Virus record (IMG/VR): IMGVR_UViG_3300000364_000025
Span: 1 to 37,880 of that record
Direction: 5' to 3' (one strand)
Length of the DNA: 37,880 nt
DNA from: a virus
Part shown: positions 4,912 to 15,971 of the stretch, piece after piece
Layout: each line of letters opens with the position of its first letter
Position numbering within the stretch: position 1 is the stretch's first letter
The notes under the pieces: model-generated
Databases searched by the model: none
Told to the model about the DNA's origin: nothing
Seen by the model: the letters and a program-made list of their open reading frames with translations, nothing else
Made by a program: the position numbers and the translations under genes

Positions 4912-6216
4912 ATGAAATTAGCCCAAGTCGAACAACCCGAACCGGAGAACACGGCATTAGCTGTGCGGCAGACCACACCGTCAAACGGAGTAACCCCCGC
5001 ACAGGCCAAGGTTGACGCTATCGCTGCCCTGACCATGAGCGCCTACGCCAAAGCTTCCACGTTGAAATTCACGGATGAGGAACAAAAGGCCCTCGCCGCG
5101 GATTTCCCAGATGAAGCGTTCAAGCCGGGCGCAGCCGGGAAAGAACATCTGATCTACATCGAACACGCGTTTTTACGTGATCGGTTCAACTCGACCTTTG
5201 GTCCGGGGCAATGGGCGATCATCCCGCGTAATCGCTGGGCGGAACCGTTTATGACCAAGGGTGGACCGAACAAACCACAAACGGAAGGGAGTCGGGTGTA
5301 CGTCGAGGCGATGTTGATGATCCGGGGTTGCTTTGTGGCTGAGGCGGTGGGGGCGATGGAATACTACCCGAGCAACGCCGGCCAGGACTACTCTGACGCT
5401 GTAGAGGGCGCGAAGACTGCGGCCCTGCGCCGTTGTGCCAAAGAGTTGGGCGTTGGTTTGCAGGCGTGGAAAAAGGATTTTGGTGACGGATGGTGGAAAC
5501 GTCGAAACGGTTTCAGACCAAACGATCCCAGCACGGGCGGCAGAGGTCATTCCCCAGACCCGGCGGCTCATACACCGAGTACTGCCGCCGCCCGTGCTGC
5601 TACTTCACCCCAGGCCAAGCCGGTACAGGGGGTTGGTGGTGAAAAGGTCGTCAAGACGGTGGCCCCGAAGTGTGCGACCGAGGAACAGAAAAAGAAGTTC
5701 TTGGCCGAAATACTGAAAGACCTGGGGAACGACATTGGTTACGCGGATGAGTTTTGCTGGAAGATAAATTGGTTAATTCCTGACGTGGAGTCCCTGTCGG
5801 ACCTGCCGCTGAAGTACGTCCCGCCCTCAACGAGACCATACAAGCTGCTTCTGGCCGCGATAAAGGACTTCAAGGATGGAAACGCCGCCGTAGCGCCGTA
5901 CCCGCCGAATCCCGAATCAGACAGCCCACCGGACAAGAAAACAGCGCCCCGGGCCAACCAGCAGCCGAGTTCACCCCCTGTAGAAGCTACTGAGGATGAG
6001 GCTTGGAGGTCGTTTGTGTGCTTCTACGGCAAGGGTAAAGACCAGACCTTGGGCAAGATGGATAAGAAGCTGTTGTACGGCTACTGGATCGGCCACAAGG
6101 TCGAGACGGAGTACAACGGCAAACAGAAGCGCCCTGAGACCATCGCCAAGGATCAGGCGTTTCGTGCGGCCCTTGATGCTGCAGGCCAACATTATGCCTT
6201 CAAGAGAAAAGCCTGA
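4912..6216 (+). CDS. single-strand annealing protein of the Rad52/Mgm101 superfamily
   Basis: A 434-residue protein. Residues 80-195 carry the pattern of Mgm101/Rad52-like annealing proteins: RFNSTFGPGQWAIIPRNRW, then VYVEAMLMIRGCFVAEAVG, then SDAVEGAKTAALRRCAKELG and WKKDFGDGWW. It would coat single strands and anneal complementary DNA in phage recombination. A Pro/Ser-rich linker follows (200-245). Residues 360-434 (FYGKGKDQTLGKM) form a second small domain resembling tails of exonuclease- or recombination-associated phage proteins. The nearby exonuclease and RusA-like genes fit a recombination set. Confidence 0.8.
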   Translation: MKLAQVEQPEPENTALAVRQTTPSNGVTPAQAKVDAIAALTMSAYAKASTLKFTDEEQKALAADFPDEAFKPGAAGKEHLIYIEHAFLRDRFNSTFGPGQWAIIPRNRWAEPFMTKGGPNKPQTEGSRVYVEAMLMIRGCFVAEAVGAMEYYPSNAGQDYSDAVEGAKTAALRRCAKELGVGLQAWKKDFGDGWWKRRNGFRPNDPSTGGRGHSPDPAAHTPSTAAARAATSPQAKPVQGVGGEKVVKTVAPKCATEEQKKKFLAEILKDLGNDIGYADEFCWKINWLIPDVESLSDLPLKYVPPSTRPYKLLLAAIKDFKDGNAAVAPYPPNPESDSPPDKKTAPRANQQPSSPPVEATEDEAWRSFVCFYGKGKDQTLGKMDKKLLYGYWIGHKVETEYNGKQKRPETIAKDQAFRAALDAAGQHYAFKRKA

Positions 6217-6666
6217 ATGAACCTCAAAAACTACACGTCATCCACGCCCACGCACCAAACGATTGCCTATATCGAGGCGTATTTGGCTGAGTGCGGCGTC
6301 TCAGGTGTGACCAAGCAGTACGAGGACAAGCAGCCTGCGGCCTTGTTCTTCACGGTGGAAGTAGGCGAAAACAGATTCACTATACGGCTTCCCGCGAGAG
6401 TGGCCGAGGTCCACGACTACCTTTGGCGATCGTACTGTTCTGGCGTGTCGAAACCGCGCAAGGTAAAGGCAGATTTCCACGAGCAAGCCGCCCGTACGGC
6501 GTGGAAGATTCAACAGGATTGGGTTCAGGTGCAAATGAGCCTGATCAAGCTGAAGCAAGTTGAATTTCTCGAAGTGTTCATGGGGTTCCTGTGGGATGGA
6601 AAACAGAGCTACTACCAATCGCTGAAAGGCGGTGGATTCAAGGAATTGCCGGAAAGGACGGAATAA
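6217..6666 (+). CDS. conserved phage hypothetical protein
   Basis: A 149-residue protein starting right after the annealing protein gene. The central part has a beta-rich stretch (FFTVEVGENRFTIRLPARV) and the second half is helical (AARTAWKIQQDWVQVQMSLI, FLEVFMGFLWDGKQSYYQSL). I recall similar proteins beside phage single-strand annealing genes, without a known role. No catalytic motif is visible. Confidence 0.7.
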   Translation: MNLKNYTSSTPTHQTIAYIEAYLAECGVSGVTKQYEDKQPAALFFTVEVGENRFTIRLPARVAEVHDYLWRSYCSGVSKPRKVKADFHEQAARTAWKIQQDWVQVQMSLIKLKQVEFLEVFMGFLWDGKQSYYQSLKGGGFKELPERTE

Positions 6667-6668
6667 CC

Positions 6669-7376
6669 ATGCAAATCATAGAGCAAACCATCGAACTACC
6701 ACAACGCTACAGCGTCCCGGCGGAGCAGGTAGGCGCGCGCGATGACCTGATCGCCGAATCTGCGGACATTACAGCCATCACCAGCGCACAAAGTCAGCAG
6801 TGGGCATCTGCTTGTGGTTCGGACTTGCAACGCCACATAAAATCAGTTCAGGAAGCCCGTGTTTCACTGTCCCGACCCTTGGACGAAGCCAAAGCCAAGC
6901 TGATCGAACTGGAGCGGAACTATTTGGCTCCGCTTTTGGCTGAGAAAGACCGGCTTGGCCGGCTGGTGTCTGCCTATCAAATCGCAGAAAACGAGCGTGT
7001 AGCGGCAGAGGAACGCCAAAGACAGGCAGAATTTGAGCGACTCGAGAACGAGCGCAGGACCTTGGAAGCCAAAGCAGAGAAAGCGAAGTCAATAGACCAG
7101 CAGGTACAGCTTGAACAGGCAGCGTATCAGGCGACCGAAGCGGCAACGGCGGTCCTCATGGCGCCACTACCGGAAGTCAGCAAGGCTAAAGGTGCAGCGA
7201 CCAGGATGGAGTTGAAATGGGAAGTCACCGATCGGGATGCTCTCTACAAGGCCCGGCCTGACCTGTTCACGGAACCGGAGTTGAAGGCGTCGGCGGTGAA
7301 AGCGTGTTGTGGGGTTAAGACGGTGATCCCAGGCATCCGCTTTTGGGAAATTCCACAAACTAGTTTCCGACGATGA
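6669..7376 (+). CDS. coiled-coil early protein of unknown function
   Basis: A 235-residue protein with a long charged coiled coil from about 65 to 165 (runs such as RQRQAEFERLENERRTLEAK). It then has a globular end (MELKWEVTDRDALYK, VKTVIPGIRFWE). The plan resembles phage proteins found beside recombination genes that guard or organise DNA ends, but no family can be named. ATG 6669 follows the previous stop by two bases. The longer frame upstream overlaps the previous gene and is not used. Confidence 0.65.
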   Translation: MQIIEQTIELPQRYSVPAEQVGARDDLIAESADITAITSAQSQQWASACGSDLQRHIKSVQEARVSLSRPLDEAKAKLIELERNYLAPLLAEKDRLGRLVSAYQIAENERVAAEERQRQAEFERLENERRTLEAKAEKAKSIDQQVQLEQAAYQATEAATAVLMAPLPEVSKAKGAATRMELKWEVTDRDALYKARPDLFTEPELKASAVKACCGVKTVIPGIRFWEIPQTSFRR

Positions 7377-8084: not shown

Positions 8085-8897
8085 ATGACAGACCGAGACT
8101 TACTATCAAAACAAGGCTTCACGACTGAAGGTATTGACTTAATCCTCGCCAACAAGACAGACCCAGCAGTTAAGGGCAGTCTTGAGGAATTACGCGGGCA
8201 ACCGCGGGCGTTCAAAGGAGTGTGGATACCTTACCAAATCTGGCTCGACGACACCATCACATGGACCGAGAAATGCCTATTGGCCGAAATAGACAGCCTG
8301 GATGACGGCCGTGGGTGTCGTGCCAGTGCCGGCCATCTTGCCCGGATGATGGGCAGTACCGCCGGCTCCATCCGAACAATGCTCTCGAAATTGGCCGCGA
8401 GAAAGTACGTCTCAACCGACGTTTCTGAGGGTGGATTACGCAAGCTGAAAGTCACTCCATGGCTGGTGGGGGTGTCAATGCCTGTTAACGGGGGGTGTCA
8501 ACACCCATTAACGAGGGTGTCAATGCCTGTTAACACAGAGGTACTAGAAGATACTAGTAGAGAAGTACCCCCTTTATCCCCCATTGGGGGAGGGGAGGGC
8601 TTTGAAGAATTTTGGAATGCCTACCCGCGCAAGGTTGGAAAGGGAATAGCAGTCCGGATATGGCTCAAGCAAAAGCTCGACGATTTGTTGCCGCGAATCC
8701 TCGATGCCATTTCAGAGCAGAAGCGGTGCGAGCAGTGGACCAAGGACGGCGGCCGGTACATCCCGCACCCCTCGACTTGGCTTAACCAAAGCCGATGGGA
8801 GGATGAGGTTCAGGCCAACGGGCACCAGCCCAAAAAGTTTCTGACCCACTTCGAGCGCACGATTAAACAGGCCATGCAGAAAGCAAACCTACCATGA
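8085..8897 (+). CDS. phage replication initiator-like protein (wHTH plus DnaD-like end)
   Basis: A 270-residue protein. Residues 40-125 resemble a winged helix used for origin binding (ITWTEKCLLAEIDSLDDGRG, ASAGHLARMMGSTAGSIRTM). Residues 125-170 are a low-complexity linker that is encoded by three DNA repeats. Residues 172-242 (FEEFWNAYPRKVGKGIAVRI, HPSTWLNQSRWEDE) match the C-terminal part common in phage replication proteins. As in lambda O, the gene may contain its own origin. A 46-base gap precedes the ATG. Confidence 0.75.
   Translation: MTDRDLLSKQGFTTEGIDLILANKTDPAVKGSLEELRGQPRAFKGVWIPYQIWLDDTITWTEKCLLAEIDSLDDGRGCRASAGHLARMMGSTAGSIRTMLSKLAARKYVSTDVSEGGLRKLKVTPWLVGVSMPVNGGCQHPLTRVSMPVNTEVLEDTSREVPPLSPIGGGEGFEEFWNAYPRKVGKGIAVRIWLKQKLDDLLPRILDAISEQKRCEQWTKDGGRYIPHPSTWLNQSRWEDEVQANGHQPKKFLTHFERTIKQAMQKANLP
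8471..8534. repeat. three iteron-like direct repeats: candidate replication origin
   Basis: GGTGTCAATGCCTGTTAAC occurs at 8471-8489 and 8516-8534 exactly, and as GGTGTCAACACCCATTAAC at 8494-8512. Start-to-start spacing is 23 and 22 bases, near two helical turns. The spacing is not a multiple of three, so the middle copy is read in another frame, and the repeats are kept at DNA level. They sit in the linker of the initiator gene, as lambda O iterons do. An inverted GGTACT/AGTACC pair (8540-8569) and a C5/G5 hairpin (about 8579-8591) follow. Confidence 0.65.
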
Positions 8898-9373
8898 AAC
8901 AAGCTGCTAATTGCAAAATGTGTGCTCGGCCCATCGTGGTCGAGATTGACGACGATTACGCGAAGCTTGGGGACCCGTTCAGGCTGATAAAGCTCGCGAC
9001 GTGTGATCGCTGTTACGACCTGCGCATACGTCGGCAAAACATCGAGGACGCGATCTACAGGGCCTGCCTCGGCATCATCCAGGCAGGGATCAAGCCAAAC
9101 AAACCAACCAAACCGGGCGAAGAGCCAAAGACGCCGGCAGAGAAAGCACGGTTCAAAGAATCTGAGGACGCTTTGAAAGTGTTGGTGACTCTGACCCAGG
9201 CGTACGCGTTGCTGGCGTCGGACTGGTGCAACCGCTCTGGGATGATCTGGGATGAGGCGTTACCGGCGGCGATATTGGAGAAACCCAAGTTCTGGCGCGT
9301 GATTCTTGAGGACTACTGGAAAACGTTTAACCGCGTGCGCAGAGAAGAACAACAGGAGATGGCGACGGCATGA
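8894..9373 (+). CDS. phage protein with an N-terminal zinc ribbon
   Basis: A 159-residue protein. CKMC (8-11) and CDRC about 30 residues later form a likely zinc ribbon, followed by a helical body with a Lys/Pro-rich loop (KPNKPTKPGEEPKTPAEKAR). It is translationally coupled to the initiator gene upstream and the small gene downstream. It could be a replication accessory, but nothing in the sequence proves this. Confidence 0.65.
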   Translation: MKQAANCKMCARPIVVEIDDDYAKLGDPFRLIKLATCDRCYDLRIRRQNIEDAIYRACLGIIQAGIKPNKPTKPGEEPKTPAEKARFKESEDALKVLVTLTQAYALLASDWCNRSGMIWDEALPAAILEKPKFWRVILEDYWKTFNRVRREEQQEMATA

Positions 9374-9546
9374 TCACCGAAGAACGAAGGAAATGGCTGG
9401 CCCAGATGTGGCAACAACACCTGAGAGACGCGGAGAAAGAGCGGTTGGCAGGACACGACCGGATCGCGGACAGCTACGAGAACAGCGCGGCGCGGATCGA
9501 AACCGAGCTGGCACGGGAAGACGTGGACCCGAGGGAGTATTTGTGA
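9370..9546 (+). CDS. very small helical protein between the zinc-ribbon and methyltransferase genes
   Basis: A 58-residue, highly charged protein (starts MITEERRKWLAQMWQQHLRD, ends REDVDPREYL), predicted helical. It fills the gap exactly: its ATG overlaps the previous stop and its TGA overlaps the GTG of the methyltransferase. That tight coupling is the main support. The function is unknown. Confidence 0.6.
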   Translation: MITEERRKWLAQMWQQHLRDAEKERLAGHDRIADSYENSAARIETELAREDVDPREYL

Positions 9547-10943
9547 AACCGACGATCTGGCACGGTTGCTACGACAAAAGCTTGAAAGGCTTTATCACCG
9601 ATCAGTCTTTCGGCCATCCGGCGAAGTATTCCCTCGGTCTGATCGAACGAATCTTCGACCATTGCCTACAACGGGGTTATTTGAAGCGTGGTGACCTTGT
9701 GGGCGACGTTTTCGGGGGAGTGGCTATCGGAGGACTCGTAGCGGCTTATCGTGGCCTACGGTGGCTTGGGTGTGAATTAGAGCCGCGTTTTGTGGGTTGG
9801 TCCAGGGCCAACATTGAGCTACACCGGACGAAGCTGGAATACCTCGGGTGTCCGTTGCCGGTGATCGTCCAGGGGGACAGCCGGAAGTTTGCGGAGCGGG
9901 TTCAGGCCATTGTGAGTAGTCCGCCGTATTCTGAAACCCTTTCGCATGGCGGTGGACCGGACACGAAACACGACTTGCTGCAGGGTGGTAAAAGTCTGCT
10001 GGCGATTAAGGCCGGCTATGGAGAGACAAACGGGAACATTGGTAGCTGCCCCGCCGGTGTGGTCGAAGCGGTGGTGTCCTCGCCGCCCTACAACCTGCCA
10101 ATGTCACAGGACCACAACGGGAAGCGCGGCGGCAAGCGCGGAACGAAGCAGATTGAGCCGGGAGCATTCGCCAAGTACGGAAACACCGAGGGACAGATCG
10201 AAGGCTTGCAGCAGGGGAAAGTGGCCGCCGTGGTGTCATCGCCCCCTTACTCCGACATTGCGGCGGGTGCAGGCGGATTGAACACCAAACCAGCGAAGCA
10301 CAACGGCCAGCAGTCAGGACGTAGCGCCAAAGCAGCCTCACAGGATGCCGACCAGAAATACGGCACGAGCGACGGCCAGATTTCACGGCTCAAGGTGGGC
10401 GCGGTGGTGACGAGTCCGCCGTTCGAGGACTGCAAGCAGGGCACATCGGGAACGCTAAAGGAAATGAAAACAGCATGGCAGCGAGATCCGAAGAACTTTG
10501 GAAAGCCGGGGCACCGACCTGCGCAAATGAGTGAATACAATTGCAACTCAATGAATGATGAGTACGGTAATACCGAGGGTCAAATTGGGAATGCCAAGGG
10601 CGAAACATACTGGCAGGCCATGGATCAGGTTTACCGCTCGTGCTTCCAGGCTATACGACCCGGTGGCGTCCTCGTGCTGGTGGTCAAAGACTACTGCAAA
10701 GGCGGTAAGCGGGTCCGACTCTGCGACGACACCATGCGTCTGTGTGAACACATCGGCTTTCAACCGCTGGAGCGGATCCACGCGATGCTTGTCAGCGAGA
10801 CCGTAGAAGCTGGCCTGTTCGGCGAGGAAAAGACCAAACGCCAGCGCAAAAGCTTTTTCCGCCGTCTCTACGAGGCAGGCATACCCGACGGTGACGAACG
10901 CCGGATTGACCATGAGGAAGTGTTGATTTTGACCCGACCGTAA
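9543..10943 (+). CDS. DNA N4-cytosine/N6-adenine-type methyltransferase with four tandem SPPY modules
   Basis: A 466-residue enzyme. Residues 52-63 (LVGDVFGGVAIG) are the SAM-binding motif I. The catalytic motif IV occurs four times: SPPY at 126-129, 180-183 and 233-236, and SPPF at 291-294. Each copy is followed by a YGxTxGxI-type tail (159-166, 212-219, 273-280, 341-348), so a unit of about 55 residues is repeated four times. The end (IRPGGVLVLVVKDYCKGGKR) closes a normal methyltransferase fold. The usual enzyme has one SPPY. The GTG start overlaps the preceding gene. Which copy is catalytic cannot be told. Confidence 0.85.
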   Translation: MKPTIWHGCYDKSLKGFITDQSFGHPAKYSLGLIERIFDHCLQRGYLKRGDLVGDVFGGVAIGGLVAAYRGLRWLGCELEPRFVGWSRANIELHRTKLEYLGCPLPVIVQGDSRKFAERVQAIVSSPPYSETLSHGGGPDTKHDLLQGGKSLLAIKAGYGETNGNIGSCPAGVVEAVVSSPPYNLPMSQDHNGKRGGKRGTKQIEPGAFAKYGNTEGQIEGLQQGKVAAVVSSPPYSDIAAGAGGLNTKPAKHNGQQSGRSAKAASQDADQKYGTSDGQISRLKVGAVVTSPPFEDCKQGTSGTLKEMKTAWQRDPKNFGKPGHRPAQMSEYNCNSMNDEYGNTEGQIGNAKGETYWQAMDQVYRSCFQAIRPGGVLVLVVKDYCKGGKRVRLCDDTMRLCEHIGFQPLERIHAMLVSETVEAGLFGEEKTKRQRKSFFRRLYEAGIPDGDERRIDHEEVLILTRP

Positions 10944-13423: not shown

Positions 13424-14236
13424 GTGACAAATGAACTCACACACCTTGACCTTTTTTCCGGCATTGGAGGATTCAGCCTCGCATTTGAAGCCGAAGGGTT
13501 TAAGACCATCGGATTCTCGGAAATCGATCCGTTTGCGGCCGCAGTTCTCCGCAAACATTGGCCAGATGTGCCCAACTACGGAGACATTCGCAATGTTCCC
13601 CGAGGACGATGCCACGTCATTACTGGGGGATTCCCTTGCCAACCCTTTTCGCAGGTACGGCAAACCAGGGGCGCCAAAGGCAAAGCAGATGACCGCTATC
13701 TGTGGCCGGCAATGCTTCATGTTATCAAGGAGTGGCGCCCGCCTTGGGTTGTTGGTGAAAACGTTGTTGGAATCATCAATATGGCACTCGACACTTGCAT
13801 ATCTGATTTGGAAAACCTCGGTTACGCCGTCCAACCGATTGTTATTCCAGCTTGTGCCCTGGGCGCCGTCCACATCAGAAAGCGGGTCTGGATTCTGGCC
13901 CACTCCGCAAGCCTCGGATGCCCTACGCTTGAGGAAATTTACCATCCCCCAACTAGCCAAAGCGGTGGCCCGAAATCGGCGAAACGGAACCGGGGGCGGC
14001 GATGCCTCCCTGAGCTTGCCGCATCAAATCAGCGTGCGGTCTCGCTTCTGTGTGAACAGTCAGTTCCTGCCGAGTCAGTTCCTGCCGAGTCAGTTCCTGC
14101 CGATAGTGGAAGCAATGATGGGTTTTCCGCCGAACTGGACGCGATTAGATGCTACGGAAACGCCATCGTCCCGCAAGTCGCGCAAATCTTCGCCCGAGCA
14201 ATCAAACAACCCCTAACCCCTTTAAACGATGCGTAA
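13424..14236 (+). CDS. DNA C5-cytosine methyltransferase (short target domain)
   Basis: A 270-residue enzyme. Motif I DLFSGIGGFSLAFEAEGF binds SAM, motif IV is GGFPCQPFSQ with the catalytic Cys, motif VI is GENV, motif VIII is RKRVWIL, and motif X is YGNAIVPQVAQIFARAI. It would methylate cytosine at position 5. At 270 residues it is short: the target-recognition region between motifs VIII and X is only about 80 residues and holds a repeated SVPAE linker. The GTG follows GGGGCGGTGA. A second long frame covers nearly the same DNA. Confidence 0.9.
   Translation: MTNELTHLDLFSGIGGFSLAFEAEGFKTIGFSEIDPFAAAVLRKHWPDVPNYGDIRNVPRGRCHVITGGFPCQPFSQVRQTRGAKGKADDRYLWPAMLHVIKEWRPPWVVGENVVGIINMALDTCISDLENLGYAVQPIVIPACALGAVHIRKRVWILAHSASLGCPTLEEIYHPPTSQSGGPKSAKRNRGRRCLPELAASNQRAVSLLCEQSVPAESVPAESVPADSGSNDGFSAELDAIRCYGNAIVPQVAQIFARAIKQPLTPLNDA
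13431..14216 (+). CDS. second open frame inside the C5-methyltransferase gene (possible overlapping gene)
   Basis: A 261-codon frame, +1 relative to the methyltransferase, without a stop over 786 bases. From about residue 55 it reads like a family I recall from phage genomes: AKQMTAICGRQCFMLSRSGA, GLLVKTLLESSIWHSTLAYL, LLFQLVPWAPSTSESGSGFW followed by PTPQASDA, and near the end VEAMMGFPPNWTRLDATETP and SSRKSRKSS. The true start may be ATG 13431 or 13593. It may be a genuine overprinted gene or an old shadow of the methyltransferase, and the sequence alone cannot decide. Confidence 0.4.
   Translation: MNSHTLTFFPALEDSASHLKPKGLRPSDSRKSIRLRPQFSANIGQMCPTTETFAMFPEDDATSLLGDSLANPFRRYGKPGAPKAKQMTAICGRQCFMLSRSGARLGLLVKTLLESSIWHSTLAYLIWKTSVTPSNRLLFQLVPWAPSTSESGSGFWPTPQASDALRLRKFTIPQLAKAVARNRRNGTGGGDASLSLPHQISVRSRFCVNSQFLPSQFLPSQFLPIVEAMMGFPPNWTRLDATETPSSRKSRKSSPEQSNNP
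14059..14103 (+). repeat. three tandem 15-base repeats inside both overlapping frames
   Basis: GTCAGTTCCTGCCGA is repeated three times without change. The length is a multiple of three, so it gives SVPAE-like repeats in the methyltransferase and SQFLP repeats in the other frame. It sits in the weakly structured target region and may vary in copy number by slippage. Confidence 0.85.
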
Positions 14237-14599: not shown

Positions 14600-15024
14600 A
14601 GAATGAACCTGAAATCATCTGGATTGACGGCAAAGCCTACTCGAAGAATTGCAAAGAGGCCATCGCTTACCGTAAGTCTCTGGCTGGACTGGATAGCCCC
14701 GAGTCCAAACAAAATGAGCCATCACATCCATTGGACCGCAACATTTCAGCAACGCCGGCTAGCCCGCAAAGCCCTGGACGCTTCCGTATCCTCATTGTCC
14801 GGTACGGCCGCAAGCGCCTGGGCAGCGATGTGCTACCCTTTGCGTACAAATCACTCCGGGACGAACTTGCCATGAGGCTATTGGGTGGCACCATCGGCCA
14901 ACTTGACGACGATCCGTGCCTTGAATGGCAGTACGGCCAAATCATCAGCAAAACCACAGGAACACACGTGCTAATCTCACACGACCAACAAACCAAAGGC
15001 CAAACCGGAACGAAGGGGATATGA
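14596..15024 (+). CDS. RusA-like Holliday-junction resolvase candidate
   Basis: A 142-residue protein. The second half (FRILIVRYGRKRLGSDVLPF, SLRDELAMRLLG, LDDDPCLEWQYGQI) resembles RusA-type resolvases of phages, where acidic residues in an RLDxDNL-like loop and a DDDP loop bind metal. Here the loop reads RLGSDVL, so one expected Asp is Gly and activity may be altered. The N-terminal 55 residues look like a separate linker. GTG 14596 gives the four-base overlap with the gene before; a competing frame at 14603 reads poorly. Confidence 0.55.
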   Translation: MKNEPEIIWIDGKAYSKNCKEAIAYRKSLAGLDSPESKQNEPSHPLDRNISATPASPQSPGRFRILIVRYGRKRLGSDVLPFAYKSLRDELAMRLLGGTIGQLDDDPCLEWQYGQIISKTTGTHVLISHDQQTKGQTGTKGI

Positions 15025-15971
15025 ATGTGTTGCTGTTCCAACTCGACGGCAAGATTCCAAACATCGCCTTGATGCGTGTGGCGGCTCACCATCGCGCACT
15101 TGGCCACGAGGTTAGCTTTCGGTGGACTGGAAACCCCGAGCGAAGCCTTTGGGACCGCCCGGACGTGGTTTATGGGTCAGCCATCTTTGAGAAAACCCGT
15201 CCAGCCGCCGAACTGTTACGGGAGCATTTCCCGAACGCCATTGTCGGTGGAACGGGGGTTGATATTTCAGATTCACTGGAGCGCCACGGCATTGAAACGA
15301 CCGAGCAGGACTATTCGCTTTATCCACGCTGGCGCCAGAGCATCGGTTTTACGCAACGGGGATGCCGCCTGCGTTGTTCTTTCTGCGTCGTGCCCCGCAA
15401 GGAAGGCGCGATCCGGCCAGAGCGCACCATAGCCGAAATCTGGCGCGGCGAACCATGGCCGCGTGAGTTGCTTCTACTGGACAATGACTTCTTTGGTCAA
15501 CCCGCATGGAGAGAGCGGATCGCAGAGATTCGGGAAGGCGGATTCAAGGTCAGTTTCAATCAGGGGATAAACGTCAGGTTCATCACTGACGAGTCAGCGG
15601 AAGCAATCGCCTCGGTGGACTACCGCGCCGACGACATGAAAACCAAGCGCATTTATACCGCTTGGGATAATCGAAAGGACGAAGAACGGCTTTTCGCTGG
15701 CCTGAACCGACTGATAAAATACGGAGTGAAGCCCGACCACATCATGGTTTACATTCTAATCGGCTATTGGCCCGGAGAGACCGACACTGATTGGGTTTAC
15801 CGCCAATCAAAGCTTCGCGAGTTCGGATGCCGCCCCTACCCCATGCCATACGAAAGGAATAAGGCCACTATGGGCTTTCAACGCTGGTGTATAGGTGCGT
15901 ACGATAAACGGTTTTCATGGGCGGACTGGAAGCGAGCCGATTACAGACCCGAGAAACTAAACCGCTACTAA
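15021..15971 (+). CDS. radical SAM enzyme of unknown substrate
   Basis: A 316-residue protein. C115, C119 and C122 (GCRLRCSFC) form the C-x3-C-x2-C cluster that holds the 4Fe-4S and SAM. The first 100 residues look like a cobalamin-binding-type fold (IVGGTGVDIS and preceding helices), as in B12-dependent radical SAM proteins, though no B12 motif is complete. The rest has barrel-like segments such as LLLLDNDFFGQPAW and IYTAWDNRKDEERL. It may modify nucleic acid or a small molecule; its place beside two methyltransferases favours nucleic acid, which is inference. Confidence 0.8.
   Translation: MNVLLFQLDGKIPNIALMRVAAHHRALGHEVSFRWTGNPERSLWDRPDVVYGSAIFEKTRPAAELLREHFPNAIVGGTGVDISDSLERHGIETTEQDYSLYPRWRQSIGFTQRGCRLRCSFCVVPRKEGAIRPERTIAEIWRGEPWPRELLLLDNDFFGQPAWRERIAEIREGGFKVSFNQGINVRFITDESAEAIASVDYRADDMKTKRIYTAWDNRKDEERLFAGLNRLIKYGVKPDHIMVYILIGYWPGETDTDWVYRQSKLREFGCRPYPMPYERNKATMGFQRWCIGAYDKRFSWADWKRADYRPEKLNRY

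Follow-up and report, generated by a model that had tools for sequence, protein, structure and literature searches.

The window (the whole stretch of DNA analyzed, a virus record of 37,880 bases) contains a gene whose product is probably a phage multispecific amino-DNA-methyltransferase with tandem, interchangeable cassettes for catalysis and target recognition. Read in this way, the protein would consist of a single SAM-binding body in which several self-contained cassettes, arranged in tandem, take the place of the usual single motif IV. Each of them would bring its own β4 strand, a catalytic SPP[Y/F/W] motif and a target-recognizing loop, and would be closed by a YGxTxGQ[LI] clip leading back into the body. 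At any moment, the strand of one cassette would fill the β4 slot, with SPPY over SAM and the loop on DNA, while the remaining cassettes would be looped out. Different cassettes would confer different recognition sequences, so that phage DNA could be guarded against several restriction systems by one gene. That every cassette is catalytic, that its loop recognizes a DNA sequence and that the gene counters restriction is what we infer from the data below, and our confidence in the explanation is held down chiefly by a glutamate asymmetry of the last cassette.

Four motif IV units in one open reading frame

The gene occupies positions 9543..10943 (+) and is translated into 466 amino acids; its GTG start overlaps the stop of a small upstream ORF (9370-9546). 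A sequence-only reading had placed SPP[YF] at residues 126, 180, 233 and 291, each unit ending in a YGxTxGxI-type tail, and both the positions and the tails proved exact on the translation, with the motifs spaced by 54, 53 and 58 residues. The shuffled window protein held a mean of 0.006 and a maximum of 2 SPP[YF] motifs (20,000 shuffles), and none was present in the other stop-to-stop frames of at least 80 aa in the six frames of the window; a chance origin of the motifs was thereby ruled out.

The N-terminal body (9543..9887, +), which has invariant columns in alignment A5 and was modeled by AlphaFold2 with pLDDT mostly 87-98, carries the motifs recognized in that alignment: motif X (HPAK, residue 25), the SAM-binding motif I (DVFGG, residues 55-59), motif II (CELE, residues 77-80) and the motif III region (GDSR, residue 111). 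The four units follow on the same strand. Unit 1 (9900..10046) comprises VQAIVSSPPY, the loop SETLSHGGGPDTKHDLLQGGKSLLAIKAG and YGETNGNIG at residue 159; its loop resembles the 'ADGCSHTGG' type by eye only and falls below the clustering cut-off. Unit 2 (10047..10202), with VEAVVSSPPY, the loop NLPMSQDHNGKRGGKRGTKQIEPGAFAK and YGNTEGQIE at residue 212, belongs to loop type 1, which is common to six other proteins. Unit 3 (10203..10385) consists of VAAVVSSPPY, the loop SDIAAGAGGLNTKPAKHNGQQSGRSAKAASQDADQK and YGTSDGQIS at residue 273, and is of type 5. Unit 4, the last (10386..10589), begins with VGAVVTSPPFED, followed by its loop and YGNTEGQIG at residue 341, and has a Glu right after SPPF, as is typical of last units. 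The C-terminal body (10590..10940, +; alignments A2 and A5, pLDDT mostly 83-94) contains an ETYWQAM helix, PGGVLVLVVKDY (motif V/VI), motif VII/VIII and the family signature RKSFFRRLYE...RID.

Within the gene, the only repeat detectable at the DNA level is a stretch of 27 nt coding for the strand and SPP, at 70-74% identity, and the units are otherwise dissimilar. A recent tandem duplication is therefore out, in line with what had been claimed from the sequence.

Enzyme class and motif order

The window protein is matched by the Pfam family PF01555 (N6_N4_Mtase) with 36.8 bits against a cut-off of 26.7, and so are all 32 of 32 aligned relatives at E <= 0.001. Motif I together with four copies of SPP[YF] as motif IV assigns it to the amino-DNA-methyltransferase superfamily. 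A Rossmann methyltransferase fold is seen in the AlphaFold2 bodies of the window protein and of a single-unit relative (L047), whose PDB matches are SAM-dependent methyltransferases. SPP[YF] favors N4-cytosine methylation, and N4-methylcytosine is the probable product, as judged from the motif.

The end of the PF01555 profile matches the N-terminus of the protein; the motif order is therefore permuted relative to the β class. It reads X-I-II-III-[IV-loop-clip]n-V-VI-VII-VIII, with the array between motifs III and V. Classes are defined by motif order in PMC2890505, β being IV-VIII-TRD-X-I-III and γ being X-I-II-III-IV-...-VIII-TRD with NPPY. The window protein does not show the β order; it agrees with the γ order, but it has its variable region between IV and V, and SPPY instead of NPPY as motif IV, so that it fits none of the α, β and γ classes as defined there.

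Relatives and unit number

To find relatives, IMG/VR was scanned with conserved segments taken from the cassettes and the C-terminal body, and bacterial genomes were scanned once. The scans yielded 49 non-redundant proteins including that of the window, and cassette searches added four (L061, L065, L067 and L081), giving 53, nearly all from uncultured phages. The body is common to all of them, with KSFFRR or KGFFRR in 52 and TSFFRR in L065. Two relatives come from metagenome-assembled bacterial genomes, one of Chloroflexi (L059) and one of Phycisphaeraceae (L060). The gene is rare: the pattern scans, which see near matches to the pattern only, gave about 50 occurrences in 2.9 million viral contigs and two loci in a collection of cellular genomes from 84,980 species. 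When 400 and 392 genomes of the two seed phyla were searched with profiles, nothing beyond the two seed genomes was returned. No array was found in annotated records of cultured phages or plasmids, and no description of a repeated motif IV or of SSPPY repeats was found in the open-access literature.

A search for homologues with varying unit number, proposed as a check on the repeat, gave a clear answer, as between one and seven units occur in one conserved body. Among the 49 proteins, some of which are cut by contig ends, the units inside the body number one in 3 proteins, two in 14, three in 13, four in 12, five in 3, six in 3 and seven in 1. Across the relatives, a unit consists of the β4 strand with motif IV, followed by a variable loop with a median length of 33 residues and by the YG tail. 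Units also lie beyond the body in the same reading frame, two in L005 and three in L007, and a truncated unit lies beyond the C-terminal end of the body in L023.

Several loci depart from this plan. A separate small ORF (L036:4753-4977, +), which follows a methyltransferase of two units at a distance of about 400 bases downstream, corresponds to one cassette (VDMAVSSPPYAQSVHDGNGIDQAKLTG...YGTAPGQLGAM), for which a trans-acting cassette, a reservoir and a remnant are the alternatives. In L042:2335-4342 (+), units 1 and 2 are separated by an in-frame insertion that resembles an HNH endonuclease domain (WEWKGKKQNKGYGRI...CHHCDNPGCVRPDHLFLGT). The last unit of L024:2374-4324 (+) seems to be without SPPY (DSVIGGTTCD, then unlike sequence), and the single unit of L029:2878-4348 (+) has FPPF and an inserted stretch; these two are possibly decaying or domain-invaded members of the family.

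Loop types and their distribution

Loops, taken without the SPPY and YG motifs, were grouped into types by BLASTP (E < 1e-4). With types that rest on this one cut-off and on regular-expression unit boundaries, 25 types were found to occur in at least two proteins and together to cover 85 of 160 units, the remainder being singletons. Their positions are not fixed. Type 1 (NLPMSQDHNGKRGG...) is the second of four units in the window and in L003, the fourth of seven in L001, the first in L004-L006, and a unit beyond the body in L007; three types common to L001 and L006 stand there in inverted relative order.

The body closest to that of the window belongs to L008 (N-terminal part 64% and C-terminal part 81% identical). 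Only window unit 3 is shared with it (82%), and units 1, 2 and 4 find there matches of 28-31% at best. Conversely, window unit 2 and unit 4 of L001 are 82% identical, though their bodies are only 33% identical. Body and cassette content are thus uncoupled.

No type is repeated within one protein, and none of 235 within-protein pairs of units reaches 45% identity. The absence of repeated types is weakly significant taken alone (2.7 expected, 0 observed, P = 0.054). The cassettes of each protein appear to form a non-redundant set, and the comparison of the arrays indicates that phages exchange, add and lose cassettes. The one to seven units, the shuffled order of loop types and the motifs left intact at 83 of 88 boundaries (see below) strongly support the proposal that the repeats are alternative cassettes related to target or catalysis.

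Conservation of the units

Since the units had first been found by SPPY, they were also counted from their YG boundaries. For this count, those YGxTxGQ[LI]-type boundaries were taken after which the motif V helix does not follow immediately (n = 88), and an intact SPP[YFWH] lies within 34 residues past 83 of them. The extra SPPY copies are accordingly not alignment noise, one of two outcomes that would have spoken against the repeat, and nothing points to the other, unrelated surface loops.

Same-type loops of distant proteins have kept their protein sequence while their synonymous third bases have drifted. Unit 1 of L006 and the second unit beyond the body of L007, for example, share 93% amino acid identity and have the same third base in 10 of 26 codons. 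The loops are thus under purifying selection, those in the position beyond the body included. Conserved loop protein together with diverged third codon bases implies that the units are old and selected, and the cassette exchanges are likewise old, because the third bases of shared types have diverged. Recent transfer of cassettes at the DNA level was not seen among the pairs checked, all with diverged third bases. No evidence of programmed rearrangement was found in four sets of near-identical contigs, in which the genes are identical.

These observations bear on a different use of the array. Silent hsdS or pilin cassettes provide a model in which one unit would work per protein and the others would be recombination stock for switching specificity. 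Such a reservoir is favored by the units that L005, L007 and L023 carry past their body and by the lone cassette ORF downstream of the gene in L036. However, the units stand in frame within one protein, their loops are under purifying selection even beyond the body, the near-identical contigs carry no rearrangement, and the repeats of the window gene are short and diverged. We consider a reservoir improbable.

Still less probable, to the point of being barely credible, is a broadly non-specific enzyme, in which the many loops of the array together would result in low specificity and an effect like that of M.EcoGII. Broad protection would presumably come either way from an orphan phage enzyme whose many loops are unlike one another; within a type, however, loops are conserved in detail over long divergence, as is expected for specific recognition, and each protein avoids repeating a type.

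Asymmetry of the last unit and predicted structure

The last unit differs from the others. Of 49 last units, 35 have a Glu directly after SPP[YFW], versus 2 of the 115 remaining units (p = 6e-22, Fisher test), and the six SPPW variants are all in last units. Copies of types 4, 6, 12, 18 and 23, and partly of 3 and 8, have this Glu in the last position and lack it internally, type 15 being an exception to the pattern. Only the last unit joins the motif V helix directly, as the unit of a single-unit enzyme does. The Glu may stabilize the junction with this helix, or activity may reside mainly or by default in the last unit. The cassettes are therefore possibly not equivalent, and a simple equivalence of units, which does not predict the Glu, counts against the explanation we prefer.

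The same asymmetry favors a protein in which only the last unit is catalytic and the upstream ones are recognition or scaffold modules, e.g., DNA-binding strands, that keep an SPPY-like motif for structural reasons. The near confinement of the Glu and the full confinement of SPPW to last units, and the direct connection of these units to the motif V helix, speak for this arrangement. Intact motifs past nearly all internal boundaries would be odd in non-catalytic copies, types 2, 3, 4, 6, 8, 12, 18 and 23 occur both internally and last, and AlphaFold2 put an internal strand in the slot, albeit with low confidence. We regard catalysis by the last unit alone as unlikely. The original suggestion of one active and three structural copies is disfavored, though kept alive by the position-specific Glu.

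AlphaFold2 modeling of the single-unit L047 (pLDDT 89, pTM 0.87) gave one β4 strand (125-130) leading to SPPY, with disorder only in the loop 142-152, the N-terminus aside. In the window protein, the N- and C-terminal bodies were mostly predicted with pLDDT >80, and the array poorly, with pLDDT <50 over residues 122-305 and 321-341. A single array strand was called, that of unit 3 (residues 227-232; 10221-10238, +), and it was placed in the β4 slot; that it was unit 3 carries no weight because confidence in the array is low. As a check on whether each SPPY can reach SAM, the prediction thus delivered a confident body with one β4 slot and an unreliable indication of which SPPY fills it. The models suggest a picture of several similar strands and one position in the fold. 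A Foldseek search against the PDB returned SAM-dependent methyltransferases for both models, with TTHA0409 on top for the window model.

Returning to the multispecific enzyme, we hypothesize that up to seven interchangeable catalytic strands take turns in one slot, so that conformational exchange would switch both the catalytic strand and the DNA specificity; we hold this part tentatively, at close to an even chance. Cassettes located past the C-terminus, as in L005 and L007, or encoded on their own, as in L036, may enter the slot from another part of the chain or in trans.

Genomic context and implications

Among the other genes of the window are those for an integrase (28-1275, -) and a replication-initiation protein (8085-8897, +), along with genes for a major head protein and a head-tail connector. 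The window further carries a phage recombination pair, an Mgm101-like annealing protein (4912-6216, +; PF06420) together with an exonuclease (6591-7376, +), and it is a matter of speculation that the two could drive recombination over the short strand-coding repeats and thereby cassette exchange. The same phage has a second DNA methyltransferase (13431-14216, +; phrog_1008) and, near it, a radical SAM protein (14925-15971, +; PF04055, phrog_9298), possibly a modification enzyme.

If the preferred explanation is true, the rule that a methyltransferase has one motif IV is broken, in a fold where alternative core strands compete for a single position. One gene would then offer phages a compact and evolvable escape from many restriction systems, and the at least 25 recurring types with many singletons would form a natural pool of recognition cassettes for methyltransferases of chosen specificity.

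Comparison with known systems

The solved structure that matches best in sequence is that of the Thermus methylase TTHA0409 (PDB 2zie/2zif/2zig), whose SPPY leads after a few residues to RYEDTPGQLG and from there into the next helix, a step directly comparable to that in the window protein. By this likeness, SPPY...YGxTxGQ[LI] corresponds to one motif IV step, here loop-enlarged and repeated. TTHA0409 and M.PvuII (1boo) are, like the window protein, SPPY/SPPF amino-methyltransferases; they have one motif IV step of a few residues, whereas the window family has one to seven units of about 55 residues each, in a motif order that is permuted relative to theirs. A distantly related protein of the cultured Microcystis phage Mel-JY01 (WWT39422.1) shows the same order in one chain, X-I-(III)-SPPY-loop of ~45 residues-motif V, but differs in its single unit, the clip DFGNLSY, an identity of ~23% and the lack of the KSFFRR signature.

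Type I HsdS and Type III Mod proteins change their specificity when recognition domains recombine on a conserved body. These have one or two recognition domains, and the exchanged part is without the catalytic motif, which the window cassettes carry.

The C5-cytosine methyltransferases of Bacillus phages (SPR, phi3T, rho11 and the SPbeta group) are of a different class and have a single shared catalytic motif. Like the window protein, they are phage proteins with tandem modules on one catalytic body. The window family has tandem non-redundant modules too, with putative DNA recognition by each; its chemistry, however, is of the SPPY type, motif IV and its strand lie inside every module, and the array sits between motifs III and V. 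In temperate Bacillus phages, several recognition domains arrayed in one enzyme protect against many restriction systems (PMC12707154), where the organization of these domains (TRDs) is also described; both this paper and PMC4081073 cite papers in EMBO J from 1987 and 1996 on multispecific C5 enzymes.

In L001, the gene for the amino-methyltransferase with seven units is immediately preceded by a C5-cytosine methyltransferase gene (L001:2607-3983, +; PF00145, 89.6 bits), with about five RAF[V/I]-type repeated segments between the catalytic and C-terminal parts. It looks like a second, C5-type multi-module enzyme, a circumstantial support for multispecificity. By analogy, the window family is best read as a putative amino-methyltransferase counterpart of the multi-TRD C5 enzymes.
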